Shown one piece after another: positions 27,493 to 43,361 of a stretch of 64,000 bases of DNA. The notes beneath the pieces were generated by a model, which was given only the letters and a program-made list of their open reading frames with translations, searched no databases and was not told the origin of the DNA. The position numbers were made by a program, and so were the translations under genes. The DNA lies in NCBI GenBank assembly GCA_024641005.1, contig JAHEDX010000012.1, forward strand, positions 1 to 64,000, given 5' to 3'. This DNA comes from Acidimicrobiaceae bacterium. GTDB lineage: Bacteria > Actinomycetota > Acidimicrobiia > Acidimicrobiales > Ilumatobacteraceae. Every line of letters begins with the position of its first letter. The first letter of the stretch is position 1.

Positions 27493-27518
27493 GGTGACAC
27501 CGCAACACGACACAGATC

Positions 27519-27609
27519 AAACGGGGAGCTCGCTGGCGCGGCGGGCTGAGAGGGTGGACGCCACCACCGACCCGAGAACCTGATCCGGGTAATGCCGGCG
27601 GAGGAACGA
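27519..27609 (+). promoter_or_regulatory. TPP (thiamine pyrophosphate) riboswitch
   Basis: The THI-element landmarks appear in order: ACGGGGAGCTC, GGGCTGAGAGGG, then GACCCGAGAACCTGATCC and GGGTAATGCCGGCGGAGGAA. The 3' end of the aptamer contains GGAGGA, which is also the ribosome-binding site of the following ATG at 27611. TPP binding should therefore hide the site and block translation of thiN and, by coupling, thiBPQ. Confidence 0.95.
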
Positions 27610-27610
27610 C

Positions 27611-28270
27611 ATGGACGAAACAGTCATCGTGGTCACCGGGGCGGAACCACTCGACCCGACAGTCGTCGCGTCGCTCCCGGCACATGGCATCGTGATCGCA
27701 GCCGACGGTGCCCTCGACCACGCACTGTCGGCCGGGCTCACGCCGGCCGGTCTGGTCGGTGATCTCGACTCGGTCTCGGTGGCCGGATTGGAGTGGGCCG
27801 AGGCGCACGCCACCATCGAACGCCACCCTGCCGACAAGAACGAGACCGACACCGAACTCGCGCTGGCCATGGCCGCCGATCTCAACCCTGCCCGGCTGAT
27901 TCTGGTGTCGGGCGGCGGCGACCGGCTCGACCACACGTTCGCGGCGATCGGTGCACTGGGCCATCCCGGGCTCACGAGTGTGCCCGTCATCGAGGCATGG
28001 TGGGGGACGCAGCACATCCGGGTGCTGCACGGCCCCGGCCGACTGAGCTTCGACGTGATCCCCGGCACGACGATCTCCTTGCTCGCGATGCACGGCCGAT
28101 GCAAGGGCGTCTCGATCGCCGGCGTCAAATGGCCGCTCGACGCAGCTCGCCTGACACCCCTCGTCGGTCACGGCGTGAGCAATGTCGCCATCGGCGAGCG
28201 CATCGACATCACCGTCTCGGAGGGTGTGGTCACGATCATGACCACTGCGACGACCGAGCGCTCGTCATGA
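27611..28270 (+). CDS. thiN: Thiamine pyrophosphokinase
   Basis: A 219-residue thiamine diphosphokinase, which makes TPP from thiamine and ATP. Family motifs are GIVIAADGALDHALSAGLTP, VGDLDSVS, the nucleotide-binding HPADKNETDTELAL and LILVSGGGDRLDHTFAAI; the C-terminal thiamine-binding beta domain includes TISLLAMHGRCKGVSIAGVKW. It starts directly after a TPP riboswitch whose aptamer includes the ribosome-binding site. The TGA overlaps the thiB ATG, so kinase and importer are co-regulated: imported thiamine is immediately phosphorylated. Confidence 0.95.
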   Translation: MDETVIVVTGAEPLDPTVVASLPAHGIVIAADGALDHALSAGLTPAGLVGDLDSVSVAGLEWAEAHATIERHPADKNETDTELALAMAADLNPARLILVSGGGDRLDHTFAAIGALGHPGLTSVPVIEAWWGTQHIRVLHGPGRLSFDVIPGTTISLLAMHGRCKGVSIAGVKWPLDAARLTPLVGHGVSNVAIGERIDITVSEGVVTIMTTATTERSS

Positions 28271-37394: not shown

Positions 37395-38177
37395 TCAGTC
37401 CAGCGCGTCGCGACGCGGGATCACCACGATCGTCCCATCTGGTTCGCTGTGCACCGTGACCCGGACGCCGTAGAACTCGGCGAGGGTCTCCGCTCGCAGC
37501 ACCTCCTCGGGAACGCCGCTCGCCACCACGGTTCCCGCGTGCAACAACGCCAGCCTGTCGCTGTACAACCCGGCGAGGGTGAGGTCGTGCATCGCCGAGA
37601 TGACGGTGAGGCCGTGATCGTTGCGCAGCCGAGCGACGAGCTCGAGCGCCTGTTGTTGATGGCCGATGTCGAGGGCACTCGTGGGTTCGTCGAGCAGCAG
37701 GATCGGCGCCTCGGTCGCCAACGCCCGTGCGATCACCAGCCGCTGGCGCTCGCCACCGCTCAACCGGCCGAGCCGGCGGTCGGCGAACTCGGAGAGTTCG
37801 AGTCGTTCGAGCACGTCGGCCACCATCGCCCGGTCATGGCGGCTCTCGTGGCCGAAGTAGCCCACATACGGGGCACGGCCAAGTAGCGCGTACTCGAAGC
37901 CGGTCATGTCGGAGGGCATCAGCGGGTCCTGAGGCACGTAGGCCACGATCGCCGCTCGACGCGCGCGGGACCGAAGCGTCATCGACGAACCGTCGACCAG
38001 CACCTCGCCGGCAGACGGGATCACACCCACGATCGCGCGGAGGATCGACGACTTGCCGGCACCGTTGGGCCCGATCAACCCGAGCCACTCGCCCGAGCGC
38101 ACCGTGTCGGTGAAACCCTGGACGACCGTGCGCTTGCCGAACTTGACCGTCAGGTCGCGGAACTCGATCGAACTCAC
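37395..38177 (-). CDS. btuD: ABC transporter ATP-binding protein, vitamin B12/iron-siderophore type
   Basis: A 260-residue ATPase of the FecCD/BtuCD class. Walker A GPNGAGKSS, Q-loop VAYVPQDPLMPSDMTGFEYALLG, signature LSGGERQRLVIARAL, Walker B ILLLDEPTSALD, and the switch His in ISAMHD are all present. GTG at 38177 overlaps the permease stop (GTGA). The upstream cobalamin riboswitch argues for corrinoid import rather than iron-siderophore import. The symbol is assigned on that basis. Confidence 0.88.
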   Translation of the reverse strand: MSSIEFRDLTVKFGKRTVVQGFTDTVRSGEWLGLIGPNGAGKSSILRAIVGVIPSAGEVLVDGSSMTLRSRARRAAIVAYVPQDPLMPSDMTGFEYALLGRAPYVGYFGHESRHDRAMVADVLERLELSEFADRRLGRLSGGERQRLVIARALATEAPILLLDEPTSALDIGHQQQALELVARLRNDHGLTVISAMHDLTLAGLYSDRLALLHAGTVVASGVPEEVLRAETLAEFYGVRVTVHSEPDGTIVVIPRRDALD

Positions 38178-39226
38178 CGGGAGATCTCCCTCGTGCGCAA
38201 CAACACGATGAAGAACGGTGCGCCGACGAACGCCGTGACGACGCCGATCGGCAGCTCGGCCGGAGCGGTGAGCATCCGTCCGGGGATGTCGGCCAGGATC
38301 AGGAACGCAGCGCCGAACGCCACGGTCAGCGGCACCACCCTGCGGTAGCTCGCACCGGCGACCAGGCGCACCATGTGGGGCACGACCAGCCCCACGAATC
38401 CGATCAGTCCGCTGACCGCGACCACCGCCGCCGTCCCCAACGTTGCGGCGATCACCACGATCAGGCGCACCCTGGTGACGGGCACGCCGAGGGTCACCGC
38501 CTCGTCGTCGCCGACGCGCAGCAGGTCGAGCTGTCGACGATGGAAGAACAACACCACGCAACTGACCGCCACGTAGGGAAACACCAGCCGCACGTCGTCC
38601 CATCGCGCCGTCGACACCCGGCCCAGGATCCAGCTGTACACCTCGCGCACGACCTCAGAGTTGCGCTGCAGCACGAATGTCTGCATCGCCGTCAGCAACG
38701 AGACCATGGCCACGCCGGCCAACACCAGTGTCGAAGTGGTTCGCATCCCGCCGAAGGAAGCGCCCACCAAGTAGGTGATCGCCACTGCCCCCAACGCGAA
38801 CACGAAGGCCACGGCCGGCACCGGGTCGACCGGCCAATCGGACCCGATGTCGTCCCAGATCGCGATCATCAGGGTGGCACCGAGGCCCGCACCCGCAGCT
38901 GCTCCGAGCAGATAGGGGTCGACCAGCGGATTGCGGAACACCCCCTGATAGCTGGCGCCGCCCACCGAGAGCATCGCCCCGACCAATCCGGCCAACACGA
39001 CCCGCGGCATCCGGATGTCCCAGATGATCGACCATTCACGATCGGTCACGCCGCTGTCGATCGAGATCAGTGGCAGATGGTCGAGCAGTGCCAACGGCAC
39101 GCGCCACCACACCGGGCCCGCCGGGCCGATCATCGCGCCCAGCAGCACGGCCAACACGACGGCGAGCACCGAGGCGGGCATCCACCCCACTCGGAACCGA
39201 CGGTCGCCATGCTGCTCGGCGTTCAC
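38174..39226 (-). CDS. btuC: FecCD/BtuC-type ABC transporter permease
   Basis: A 350-residue permease with about ten membrane helices. Family signatures are RMPRVVLAGLVGAMLSVGGASYQGVFRNPL, DPYLLGAAAGAGLGAT and VSGLIGFVGLVVPHMVRLVAGASYR (the ATPase-contact loop region). I chose GTG at 39226, four bases after the binding-protein stop; the track start at 39271 would overlap. It partners the adjacent ATPase and the cobalamin-riboswitch-controlled lipoprotein. Confidence 0.88.
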   Translation of the reverse strand: MNAEQHGDRRFRVGWMPASVLAVVLAVLLGAMIGPAGPVWWRVPLALLDHLPLISIDSGVTDREWSIIWDIRMPRVVLAGLVGAMLSVGGASYQGVFRNPLVDPYLLGAAAGAGLGATLMIAIWDDIGSDWPVDPVPAVAFVFALGAVAITYLVGASFGGMRTTSTLVLAGVAMVSLLTAMQTFVLQRNSEVVREVYSWILGRVSTARWDDVRLVFPYVAVSCVVLFFHRRQLDLLRVGDDEAVTLGVPVTRVRLIVVIAATLGTAAVVAVSGLIGFVGLVVPHMVRLVAGASYRRVVPLTVAFGAAFLILADIPGRMLTAPAELPIGVVTAFVGAPFFIVLLRTREISR

Positions 39227-39230
39227 GGCC

Positions 39231-40205
39231 TCAGCCCGCCTTCGCTGCTGCAGCCTGGGCGACCGCCTCACCCGCGATCTGCAGATATTCGACGATACGC
39301 GGTCCCCAACGCGACGCGATGTCGTCGTTCATCTCGATCACATCGCCGTTCTCGACGGCATCGAGCGATTCCCAGCCCGGTCGGTCCGCCACCGACGCTG
39401 CCGACACGTCGCAGTAGAGCGTGCAGGCGAGGAAGATCAGGTCGGGGTTCTGGGCGAGGATGAACTCGGCGCTGAGCTGCGGGTACGGGTTGCCGTCGCC
39501 CACCGCGTCGGCGATGTTGACGATGCCGATCTCGCTGTATACGGCGCCGATGAAGGTCTCACTCGTGACCGAAAAGAACGTGTCATCGAGCTCGTGGTAG
39601 TAGGTCAATGGCTCGGCGAGCTCTGGCAGACCGGCCTTGACCTCGTCGACATCGGCCTGCATCTGGCCGACCAATTCGGCCGCCTCGGCGATGTGACCGG
39701 TCACCACCCCGAGCTGTTCGATCTGGTCGTAGACGTCGCCGAACGAGACCGCCGCATAGCCCTCCCAGTGGGCGATACCGAGCGTGTCGAGCTGGGCGAG
39801 GAAATCGGGATTCGTCCCGTCCGTGACGAGCAGGTCGGGCTCGAGCCCGGCGATCGCCTCGACGTTGGGCTCCCAACCGTTCAGGCCCTGCATCTTCATC
39901 GCTGCTTCCGCGGGAAAGTTCGAGAAGTCGTCGACGGCGAGCACCTGGTCACCGGCACCGATCGCGTACAGCATCTCGGTCGCCGTCGGGGACAGCGAGA
40001 TGATCGCCGACGGCAACATCTGCGGATCTGGCACCGTGTCGTCCGGTTGTACCGTGTCGTCGGTCGGCATCGTGGCGTCGGCCGCCTGCGTCTCAGTGGT
40101 GGTGACGATCGGTTCGGCGGCAACCGGACCGGGTGTGTCATCACCGCACGATGCGGCGATCAGTACGCAGCCGGCGATCAAACCGGCGAGCGTGGTACGT
40201 GTCAT
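39231..40205 (-). CDS. btuF: Vitamin B12-type ABC transporter substrate-binding lipoprotein
   Basis: A 324-residue class III binding protein. Signal peptide with lipobox LIAASC; Thr/Asp-rich linker; then the BtuF/FepB fold starting PSAIISLSPTATEMLYAIGAGDQVLAVDDFSNFPAEA, with NVEAIAGLEPDLLVTDG and GWESLDAVENGDVIEM near the C-terminus. Strong GGAGGAG ribosome-binding site. It is the first gene behind a cobalamin riboswitch, whose expression platform contains a hairpin next to that site. It binds extracellular corrinoids for BtuCD. Confidence 0.9.
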   Translation of the reverse strand: MTRTTLAGLIAGCVLIAASCGDDTPGPVAAEPIVTTTETQAADATMPTDDTVQPDDTVPDPQMLPSAIISLSPTATEMLYAIGAGDQVLAVDDFSNFPAEAAMKMQGLNGWEPNVEAIAGLEPDLLVTDGTNPDFLAQLDTLGIAHWEGYAAVSFGDVYDQIEQLGVVTGHIAEAAELVGQMQADVDEVKAGLPELAEPLTYYHELDDTFFSVTSETFIGAVYSEIGIVNIADAVGDGNPYPQLSAEFILAQNPDLIFLACTLYCDVSAASVADRPGWESLDAVENGDVIEMNDDIASRWGPRIVEYLQIAGEAVAQAAAAKAG

Positions 40206-40215
40206 GGAATCTCCT

Positions 40216-40235
40216 CCACTTGGGAGGACAAGTGG
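40216..40235 (-). promoter_or_regulatory. Expression-platform hairpin with anti-Shine-Dalgarno loop
   Basis: In the minus-strand RNA, CCACTTG and CAAGTGG form a 7-bp stem whose loop is TCCTCC, complementary to the GGAGGA ribosome-binding site that starts at the base of the stem. Suggests translational control of btuF by the riboswitch. Confidence 0.6.
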
Positions 40236-40287
40236 GCCGGAAGATCGGGAGCCGATCCGCGAACCGCCCTTGCCTCGAGGGTCTGGT

Positions 40288-40402
40288 TATCGCGCACGAC
40301 CGGGTCGACCGGGCTCGCCCCGATCGAGTCGTCGAACTCGTCGGGAACCACCGTTGCGGGACAGCGCCGGGATCTCACCGGACTTCGCACCGTACGTGCG
40401 AT
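40288..40402 (-). promoter_or_regulatory. Cobalamin riboswitch
   Basis: On the minus strand the conserved core GAAGTCCGGTGAGATCCC, then CGGCGCTGTCCCGCAACGGT, is followed by the B12-box-like GCGAGCCCGGTCGACC. ATCGCACG and CGTGCGCGAT can close P1. It lies about 80 nt before the btuF start and should repress the importer when adenosylcobalamin is plentiful. Confidence 0.9.
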
Positions 40403-40403
40403 C

Positions 40404-40420
40404 CGAACGTTACACGTTCG
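40404..40420. promoter_or_regulatory. 17-bp palindrome between riboswitch and cobO
   Basis: CGAACGTTACACGTTCG is a perfect 7-3-7 inverted repeat. It lies just upstream of the aptamer where the importer promoter should be, and 40 nt before cobO, so it may be an operator acting on both directions. Confidence 0.4.
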
Positions 40421-40458
40421 AGCCGCACGCCCGTCATTGCAATAGGCTCGCCGGCCTG

Positions 40459-41043
40459 ATGACCAACGAAGCCGACTCCACGACCGAAGCGCTCGCCGAC
40501 GACCCCAGACCCGACGGGCTGCGCTCCGCGCCATCTCTCGTCGTGGTGAACACCGGCAACGGCAAGGGCAAGAGTTCGGCCGCGTTCGGCGTCATGCTGC
40601 GGGCACTGGCCGTCGACTGGAACGTGGCGGTCGCCCAGTTCATCAAGTCGAGTGACTGGAAAGTCGGCGAGGAGAAGATGGGCCGTCGGCTCGGTGTCGA
40701 CTGGTTCGCGTTCGGCGATGGATTCACCTGGGACTCCGACAACCTCGACGACGACAAGGCGCACGCACGCGAAGGGTGGGCGACGGCGAAGCGACTCATC
40801 GCTGCCGGCGAGCACCAGCTCGTAATCCTCGACGAACTGACCTATCTCTGCTCGTGGGGTTGGATCGATCAGGACGACGTGATCGCCACCATCACCGGGC
40901 GCCCCGCACACGTCAACATCGTCGTCACCGGCCGCGACGCTCCGGCCGAGCTGATCGCGATCGCAGACACGGTGACCGAGATGACCGAGATCAAGCACGC
41001 CTACCAGCAGGGCATCCGCGCCAAGCGCGGGATCGACTTCTGA
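40459..41043 (+). CDS. cobO: Cob(I)yrinic acid a,c-diamide adenosyltransferase
   Basis: A 194-residue CobO/BtuR enzyme that adenosylates corrinoids. The P-loop variant NTGNGKGKSSAAFGVMLRAL is diagnostic, followed by VAVAQFIKSSDWKVGEEKM, LVILDELTYLCSWGWID and HVNIVVTGRDAPAELIAIADTVTEM. C-terminal KHAYQQGIRAKRGIDF matches the family end. ATG at 40459 is the only reasonable start in frame; there is no Shine-Dalgarno, but TAGGCT lies 10 nt upstream. First gene of cobO-cobU-cobT-cobS, divergent from the B12 importer. Confidence 0.95.
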   Translation: MTNEADSTTEALADDPRPDGLRSAPSLVVVNTGNGKGKSSAAFGVMLRALAVDWNVAVAQFIKSSDWKVGEEKMGRRLGVDWFAFGDGFTWDSDNLDDDKAHAREGWATAKRLIAAGEHQLVILDELTYLCSWGWIDQDDVIATITGRPAHVNIVVTGRDAPAELIAIADTVTEMTEIKHAYQQGIRAKRGIDF

Positions 41044-41050
41044 GCCCTCG

Positions 41051-41584
41051 ATGCTGACCATCCTGCTCGGTGGCGCCCGTTCCGGTAAGAGCTCTCTCGC
41101 GGTTCGGATCGGCGAACGCCACGGCGGCGACGTCGTGTACATAGCGACCAGCCCCCGCATCCTGGGCGACGACGACCTCGACACCCGCATCACCGCGCAC
41201 CGCGCCGAGCGACCTGCCGACTGGCGCACGATCGAGGAGGAACTCGATCTGGCCGGAGCGATCGCCGCCGCCGACGCCGGGCTCGTGATCGTCGACTGCC
41301 TCACCGTCTGGCTCGGCAATCTCCTGCACCACGGCTACGACGAGCCGGCCATCACGACCGCCTGCCTGGCGGCTCTGGACGCCGCCCACGAAGTCGCGGG
41401 CGACATCGTCGCGATCACCAACGAGGTCGGTCTGGGCATCGTCCCCGCCAACGAACTGGCCCGCCGGTATCGCGATCAGTTGGGGCGGATCAACCAGCGC
41501 TGGGTCGCTGCGGCAGATCGCTCCTACCTGATGGTCGCCGGACGCGCCCTCGCGCTGACCGACCCGGGCAGCGAGCCGGCATGA
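41051..41584 (+). CDS. cobU: Adenosylcobinamide kinase/adenosylcobinamide-phosphate guanylyltransferase
   Basis: A 177-residue bifunctional enzyme of nucleotide-loop assembly. Walker A GGARSGKSSLAVRIG; second motif VVYIATSPRILGDDDLDTRI with HRAERPADWRTIEEE; VIVDCLTVWLGNLL; and TNEVGLGIVPANELARRYRDQLGRINQ are all typical. It starts 7 nt after cobO and overlaps cobT (ATGA). Confidence 0.95.
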   Translation: MLTILLGGARSGKSSLAVRIGERHGGDVVYIATSPRILGDDDLDTRITAHRAERPADWRTIEEELDLAGAIAAADAGLVIVDCLTVWLGNLLHHGYDEPAITTACLAALDAAHEVAGDIVAITNEVGLGIVPANELARRYRDQLGRINQRWVAAADRSYLMVAGRALALTDPGSEPA

Positions 41585-42597
41585 GCGACCAACTGCGACG
41601 CGAGCTGGCTGAGTTGAGCGGGCGGGACGAGTTGGCCGCTTCGCTCGTGAGGGCACGCTCCGAACAGGTGCTTCGCCCCTCCGGCGCCCTGCAACGACTC
41701 GACGACGTGGCCGTGCACATCGCCGCGTGGCAGGGCTCGGTGACACCGACCGTCGAACGGCCGGCCGTGTTGATCTTCGCGGGCGATCATGGTGTCGCTG
41801 CGGCAGGCGTCAGCAACTACCCGGCCGAGGTCACAGCTGCCATGTTCGCGGCGGTGAGGGCGGGTCGAGCAACGATCAACGCCCTCGCCCGCTCGGTCGG
41901 GGCCACCCTCTCGGTCTTCGATGTGGGCGTCGGGCGGCCCACCGGCGACATCCGGTTCGAGGCCGCCCTGTCACCCGAACGTTTCGATCAGGCGGTCGCC
42001 ATAGCTGTGGCAGCGGTCGACGATGCCGTTGCCGACGGCGCCGACCTGCTCGTCCTCGGTGAACTCGGGATCGGCAACACCACGGTCGCCGCCGCCCTGG
42101 CGGCAGCGCTGCTGCGCGGCGACAACGACGGTTGGAGTGGCCGGGGTACCGGCGTCGACGACGACGGCCTGCAACGCAAACGCCGAGCCGTCGACCAGGC
42201 GGTCGTCCGGGTGTCGTCACTCGACGACCCGATCGAGATCATGCGTGAGATCGGTGGCGCCGAACTCGCGGCCATGGCGGCGGCGTGCGCTCGCGCCCGG
42301 CGCCACCGCGTCCCCGTGGTGCTCGACGGCTATGTAGCGACCGCCGCAGTGCTACCGCTCGACATCGCCTGCCCGGGGGCACTCGACCACTGCATCATGG
42401 GACACCTGTCCGCCGAACCGGGTCATCGGCGCATCCTCGATCATCTCGGGGTCCAACCATTGCTCGACCTGGGTATGCGGCTGGGCGAGGGCAGTGGGGC
42501 ACTCGCCGCCGTACCTCTGATCCGCATGGCCTGCGTGTCGGTCGTCGAGGTGGCGACGTTCGACGAATGGTTCGGCGACGAGCCGTTCGGGCAATGA
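41581..42597 (+). CDS. cobT: Nicotinate-nucleotide--dimethylbenzimidazole phosphoribosyltransferase
   Basis: A 338-residue CobT that activates the lower ligand base as alpha-ribazole phosphate. Typical motifs: IFAGDHGVAAAGVSNYPAEVTAAM, LGELGIGNTTVAAAL, VVLDGYVATAAVLPL and the catalytic Glu in LDLGMRLGEGSGA. Normal length. Overlaps both neighbours by four bases, indicating coupled expression with CobU and CobS. Confidence 0.95.
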   Translation: MSDQLRRELAELSGRDELAASLVRARSEQVLRPSGALQRLDDVAVHIAAWQGSVTPTVERPAVLIFAGDHGVAAAGVSNYPAEVTAAMFAAVRAGRATINALARSVGATLSVFDVGVGRPTGDIRFEAALSPERFDQAVAIAVAAVDDAVADGADLLVLGELGIGNTTVAAALAAALLRGDNDGWSGRGTGVDDDGLQRKRRAVDQAVVRVSSLDDPIEIMREIGGAELAAMAAACARARRHRVPVVLDGYVATAAVLPLDIACPGALDHCIMGHLSAEPGHRRILDHLGVQPLLDLGMRLGEGSGALAAVPLIRMACVSVVEVATFDEWFGDEPFGQ

Positions 42598-42608
42598 AAG
42601 GTCCACCG

Positions 42609-43361
42609 ATGCAGGGGTTGCTCGGAGCGATCCAGTTCTTGACCCGCGTCCCCGTGCGCACCCGCGAGGCCGTCGAACACGCCGTCATCGTCCCGTGGTT
42701 CCCGATCGTCGGCACGTTGATCGGTGCCACTGTCGGCGCGGTCGCGGTCGGACTCGGCCAACTCGTGCCGACCGCGGTGGCAGGGACGGTCGCGGTGATC
42801 GTCGGCCTGCTGATCACGGGCGCGTTCCACGAGGACGGCCTGGCCGACATCGCCGACGCATTCGGCGGCGGATGGAGCCCCGCCCAACGGCTGGAGATCC
42901 TGAAGGACTCCCGCCACGGCACCTACGGCGTCGCCGCGCTGTCGTCGTCGATTGCGGTTCGCATCGTGTGCGCGGCTTCGATTGCATCGCCCGCAGCGAT
43001 GTTCGCCGCGTTCGTGGCAGCACACACGCTCGGGCGTGGAGCAGCAGTCGCAGCGATGAGAACCGCGCCGCCGGCATCGGACAGCGGCCTCGGCGTTTCC
43101 GCTGCGCGGGCCCTGCGTCCGGCCACCACAGTCCTCGGGCTGCTGACCGGCACCGCGTTGACCGCGCTCGTCGCCGGTTGGTGGGTCGGTCCCTTCCTGG
43201 CGGCCGCGGCCTTCGCGGTGCTGTCGGTCGTCGGGCTTGCCGTGCGCAAGATCGGCGGGCTGGCAGGCGACGTGCTGGGCGCCGTCGAGCAAGTGGCCGA
43301 ATGCCTCGTGCTGGTCGTCGCCAGCGGACTCGCCGCGCACCATTCGATCTGGTGGTCGTGA
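42609..43361 (+). CDS. cobS: Adenosylcobinamide-GDP ribazoletransferase
   Basis: A 250-residue membrane enzyme joining adenosylcobinamide-GDP and alpha-ribazole. N-terminus MQGLLGAIQFLTRVPV and the metal-binding loop FHEDGLADIADAFGGGW are diagnostic; about six hydrophobic helices follow, and RKIGGLAGDVLGAVEQVAECLVL is the conserved C-terminal part. I prefer ATG 42609 (AAAGG upstream, aligns with family starts); ATG 42594, overlapping the cobT stop as ATGA, is the alternative. Last gene of the lower-ligand operon. Confidence 0.93.
   Translation: MQGLLGAIQFLTRVPVRTREAVEHAVIVPWFPIVGTLIGATVGAVAVGLGQLVPTAVAGTVAVIVGLLITGAFHEDGLADIADAFGGGWSPAQRLEILKDSRHGTYGVAALSSSIAVRIVCAASIASPAAMFAAFVAAHTLGRGAAVAAMRTAPPASDSGLGVSAARALRPATTVLGLLTGTALTALVAGWWVGPFLAAAAFAVLSVVGLAVRKIGGLAGDVLGAVEQVAECLVLVVASGLAAHHSIWWS

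Follow-up and report, generated by a model that had tools for sequence, protein, structure and literature searches.

The 253 bases that separate btuF (ATG at 40205, minus strand) from cobO (ATG at 40459, plus strand) raise the question of whether a corrinoid importer and the divergent cobOUTS operon share one regulatory element or are each controlled by signals of their own. In the window, by which we mean the whole 64,000-nucleotide stretch analysed here, the first-pass annotation had treated this gap as a single control region with a possible operator for both sides. We put a probability of roughly 85% on a different reading, in which the gap holds a cobalamin riboswitch of the translational OFF type acting on btuFCD, the inverted repeat is the btuF -10 region, and cobOUTS has its own overlapping promoter with no riboswitch. 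The aptamer match, its strand, the conserved alternative pairings and the promoter positions are given by sequence comparison, and we infer the identity of the ligand, the direction of switching and the start sites.

The divergent corrinoid locus and its aptamer

Pfam and NCBIfam searches bore out the divergent arrangement of btuFCD (minus strand) and cobO-cobU-cobT-cobS (plus strand) that had first been described from the sequence. The importer genes are btuF (39231..40205, minus strand), for a putative corrinoid-binding lipoprotein (PF01497, E 1e-35), btuC (38174..39271, minus strand), for a permease of the FecCD type whose start codon is possibly further in (PF01032, E 2.1e-87), and btuD (37395..38186, minus strand), for the ATPase (PF00005, E 1.5e-32), where the top NCBIfam model was a corrinoid ABC transporter ATPase, under its cut-off. 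NCBIfam matches of these genes include BtuF, BtuC and the corrinoid ATPase, but no specific transporter model reaches its cut-off, and the names btuF, btuC and btuD are therefore based on context. Across the gap, cobO (40459..41043, plus strand) encodes a corrinoid adenosyltransferase (PF02572, E 1.5e-61; NF004637 and TIGR00708 above cut-off), and cobU, cobT and cobS (41051..43361, plus strand; PF02283, PF02277 and PF02654) serve nucleotide-loop assembly, with the NCBIfam models for CobU and CobT above cut-off and that for CobS slightly under. A search for CbiC (PF02570) found it in none of the 10 genomes of the genus, 5 of which are at least 90% complete, and this marker was detected in seven control genomes. 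As CbiC was not found in the genus, the locus looks like one for corrinoid salvage, through import, adenosylation and nucleotide-loop assembly with riboswitch control on import only, even if one missing marker is not proof.

The aptamer (40261..40414, minus strand) is of the AdoCbl type, and its 3' end carries the P13/L13 hairpin. RF01482 was the best model, giving a full-length match (model positions 1-149) at 38.8 bits (E 9.2e-6; genome-wide E 2.2e-5), which takes in the last hairpin with its conserved loop UCGAGGCAA but falls under the gathering score of 50 set as the curators' cut-off; the expression platform lies outside this model. RF00174 scored the same element at 28.2 bits (40289-40418; genome-wide E 4.6e-5), likewise under its curated cut-off, and the aptamers found at the same place in relatives exceed or approach the curated Rfam cut-offs. 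By these covariance-model matches the element is a member of the cobalamin riboswitch clan (Rfam CL00101; RF01482, RF00174), and it is the only cobalamin riboswitch match in the genome at E 0.001, in an assembly that is 94% complete and from which another could be missing. With Rfam gathering thresholds the sole match in the window was a TPP riboswitch (27512-27621, plus strand; 54.5 bits, barely above its gathering score), and the cobalamin match needs an E-value threshold. Both cobalamin models matched the minus strand only, and no riboswitch was found on the cobO strand in the Rfam model search, in agreement with the earlier view that the riboswitch is restricted to the importer strand and that cobOUTS has none of its own.

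An RF01482 match was present in 194 of 298 genomes of the order. The element stands ahead of btuF, with divergent cobO, in seven congeneric genomes and in an Ilumatobacteraceae metagenome-assembled genome (L115), and these eight loci together with the window are referred to here as the nine close loci. Cobalamin riboswitches were also seen ahead of other predicted secreted proteins, not btuF, in L003, L005 and L010 (congener G002), the last being a different riboswitch that falls outside the nine close loci. In the literature we found nothing specific on cobalamin in Ilumatobacter or on actinobacterial btuF riboswitches. The P13 hairpin (40263..40287, minus strand; loop CUCGAGGCAAGG) is the conserved hairpin of RF01482 and is kept in the nine close loci, and UCCCG (40357..40361, minus strand), the L5 side of the proposed kissing loop, agrees with the published L5 consensus UCCCG (PMC10653944). 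L13 CGAGG could pair with CCCG of L5 only if one A bulges, and other members are known to have bulges (PMC10653944).

Alternative pairings in the expression platform

The btuF Shine-Dalgarno (SD) sequence GGAGGA (40212..40217, minus strand) is conserved and lies seven bases (GATTCC and one overlap-free spacer) before the ATG at 40205. The anti-SD strand CUUGUCCUCC (40223..40232, minus strand) is complementary both to the SD and to L13, so that two mutually exclusive pairings are possible, namely anti-SD with SD or L13 with anti-SD. For the first of these, it had been suggested that a hairpin loop reading TCCTCC could pair with the btuF ribosome-binding site. UCCUCC can indeed pair with GGAGGA, but the hairpin is not conserved in the genus, as complete pairing of CCACUUG(UCCUCC)CAAGUGG is confined to this genome (-9.4 kcal/mol, compared with -5.3 to -5.7 kcal/mol in four congeners), and the genus-conserved structure is a direct UCCUCC:GGAGGA hairpin. 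While these are the arms within the genus, other arms that are still complementary are found elsewhere in the family and order, and sequence comparison thus shows the SD-sequestering arms to co-vary at both levels. Predicted SD accessibility across 65 loci was 0.17, compared with 0.36 when the upstream sequence was shuffled (p 5e-9). In the window alone it was 0.21 against 0.15 in shuffles, i.e. not lower, and here the CCACUUG/CAAGUGG hairpin private to this genome competes with the SD pairing.

In the second pairing, GAGGCAAG of L13/P13 (40269..40276, minus strand) forms eight pairs with CUUG-U-CCUC around one bulge. The bulge is an A in L056 and L059 and is missing in L063, and the eight pairs are kept in all family members that share this layout; by hand alignment, L017 retains all eight through two compensatory, both-sided changes and one wobble. 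Across the order, inspection by eye showed that L13 UCGAGG often occurs with a matching CCUCGA, and that in L086 and L101 L13 CGGAGG occurs with CCUCCG. In L107, L108, L111 and L112, which belong to other families, the SD hairpin looks by eye as if rebuilt upstream of the start codon (CCUGUC...GACAGG), with a CUCGA complementary to L13 retained inside it. The duplex of L13 with its arm had an energy of -12.9 kcal/mol compared with -10.1 kcal/mol for shuffled arms, and the gain over arms swapped between species was modest, with 578 of 20,000 permutations equally good. As L13 resembles an SD, part of this pairing is automatic.

The predicted minimum fold was the L13:anti-SD form in seven of the nine close loci, with this form within 0.1 kcal/mol in the window and L016, and barring the L13 loop from pairing, as the kissing loop would, led to predicted forms with the SD paired. 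Several of the predicted L13:anti-SD (ON) forms still engage the SD in a small hairpin that also takes up the start codon, and those of L011 and L014 have it paired to the P13 5' strand; free-energy models cannot decide how open the SD is in the L13:anti-SD form.

We propose that L13 acts as an anti-anti-SD strand, which refines the anti-SD idea of the first-pass annotation. When coenzyme B12, the presumed ligand, is lacking, GAGGCAAG would pair with the anti-SD strand CUUG-U-CCUC, and with the anti-SD held by L13, UCCUCC could not hold the SD and btuF would be translated. With ligand bound, the L5-L13 kissing loop and P13 would tie up L13, so that UCCUCC would capture the SD GGAGGA and bring translation to a stop. 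Translation of the importer is thus most likely shut off when B12 is plentiful.

The inverted repeat and the two promoters

The sequence first described as a perfect palindrome where the promoters should be does lie at a promoter, but is in fact an inverted repeat, CGAACGT-TAC-ACGTTCG (40404..40420), of two 7-base arms and a 3-base spacer (7+3+7). Its centre coincides with the proposed btuF -10 box TAACGT (40407..40412, minus strand), and on the btuF strand it reads CGAACGTG-TAACGT-TCG. The arms are not conserved, whereas the position of the TANNNT is: it precedes the aptamer core by 33 bases in eight of the nine close loci and by 35 in L015. Likewise, in 82 riboswitches of the order, TANNNT peaks at -30 to -38, with 13 occurrences at -33 against a mean of ~1 per offset.

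On the other strand, the proposed cobO -10 box TAGGCT (40443..40448, plus strand) is present throughout the nine close loci, as either TAGGCT or TATGCT, and, judged by eye, lies 7-10 bases before the cobO ATG. The cobO transcript is therefore probably leaderless or nearly so, with no room for a riboswitch. In eight of the nine close loci the cobO -10 box is 30, 31 or 34 bases away from that of btuF, by which the two promoters appear to overlap back to back. The shared promoter region of L014 (congener G006) is a natural deletion variant with 7 bases between the boxes.

The first-pass annotation had proposed a protein that binds the repeat as its operator and co-regulates btuFCD and cobOUTS; the repeat is exact, it is placed between the two start regions, and CGTGTANCGTTCG has just one further exact occurrence in the genome, likewise at a riboswitch promoter. 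We regard such an operator as highly improbable. The arms were not found at the same place in any of the eight related loci, they occur exactly only once in this genome and not at all in nine congeneric genomes, and L014 has only 7 bases between its two -10 boxes. Repeats of such quality are also common in this sequence: the 64-kb window holds 111 that have 7-base arms and a spacer of 3-10 (1.7 per kb, or ~0.4 expected per 253 bases), and 23 in which the spacer is exactly 3. The genome search for further copies, suggested with the operator idea, recovered a single near-identical site, CGAACGTGTAGCGTTCG at G000:C117:8568, which is another -10 box and precedes a tandem glycine riboswitch by ~ten bases. 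This riboswitch (L055, G000:C117:8364-8558, minus strand) belongs to the same genome, and exact copies of CGTGTANCGTTCG are found only at its promoter and at that of btuF. At the corresponding place, GTGTARCGT occurs in six of seven other congeneric glycine loci, with flanks that vary between species. As only GTGTARCGT recurs at the glycine loci, what the repeat shares with them is a -10 sequence with a nearly self-complementary core. Four copies of the repeat with one mismatch comprise two inside likely genes, one beside a hisG-like gene and the one at the glycine-riboswitch promoter. A control with reversed patterns, ill suited to such CG-rich words, was given no weight. The arms are thus neither conserved at orthologous promoters nor repeated at related ones, and an operator forming a two-site system private to this species has nothing in its favour.

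A LexA-like site was also considered and rejected. The half-sites CGAAC/GTTCG are 7 apart in the repeat, while those of mycobacterial SOS boxes are 4 apart, and they carry little information because the genome has 570 occurrences of CGAAC-N(2-14)-GTTCG.

The repeat could instead be a hairpin of the riboswitch RNA, either P2-like or a competing stem, given that the minimum-energy fold of a longer strand extends it with GUGCG/CGCAC and that the RF00174 match has its 5' end inside it. This too is very unlikely and was rejected on conservation and position, since the repeat is not retained in relatives and the conserved TANNNT would place the transcription start downstream of most of the repeat. 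The repeat is most likely the importer's promoter, in its -10 region, and not a protein-binding switch, and the locus illustrates how a -10 box can mimic an operator.

Of the single control region first described, the shared operator falls away and only the two overlapping promoters are left. Compatible with a translational OFF riboswitch is a reading in which these back-to-back promoters couple the operons, with RNA polymerase on one at a time and B12 shutting off the importer only. The spacing of 30, 31 or 34 bases in eight of the nine close loci places each -35 region inside the other promoter, as such coupling would have it, but the spacing is 7 in L014, and the overlap could simply follow from the short gap; we consider coupling rather unlikely. 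If true, transcription of the importer and of the corrinoid-completion operon would be mutually exclusive in this genus, with the riboswitch acting on the importer only.

Relation to known cobalamin riboswitches

The riboswitch itself is ordinary, a known mechanism in a new lineage. In the metE riboswitch of Mycobacterium tuberculosis, a translational OFF design was established by in-line probing and reporter constructs, and an anti-anti-TIR forms a hairpin with L13 as its loop, while the kissing loop reinforces the anti-TIR:TIR pairing (PMC11260477). By analogy, the btuF platform may work in the same way, as both have an SD region, an anti-SD strand and an anti-anti-SD overlapping L13, with the kissing loop, here a predicted one, deciding which pairing forms (PMC11260477). 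However, metE is regulated there and an importer here, the authors assign the metE switch to class I (PMC11260477) whereas the best Rfam model here is RF01482, and the pairing strands are much shorter in the btuF element.

Throughout the class, the L5-L13 kissing loop controls P13 (PMC10653944). The Priestia megaterium metE and Escherichia coli btuB riboswitches share the L5 UCCCG, and in them the L13 kissing loop stabilises P13 and sets the downstream hairpin; in P. megaterium metE the 3' side of P13 also pairs with the downstream hairpin when ligand-free (PMC10653944). Unlike the proposed btuF switch, that of P. megaterium metE works through a transcription terminator, and it has a kissing loop of five contiguous pairs (PMC10653944), where the btuF element would need a bulged A in L13.

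This switching design has so far been tested mainly in one mycobacterial riboswitch. The order would offer natural variants of it, with L13, anti-SD strand and SD identified at 63 distinct loci, and the compensatory changes in L017 suggest a direct rescue experiment.
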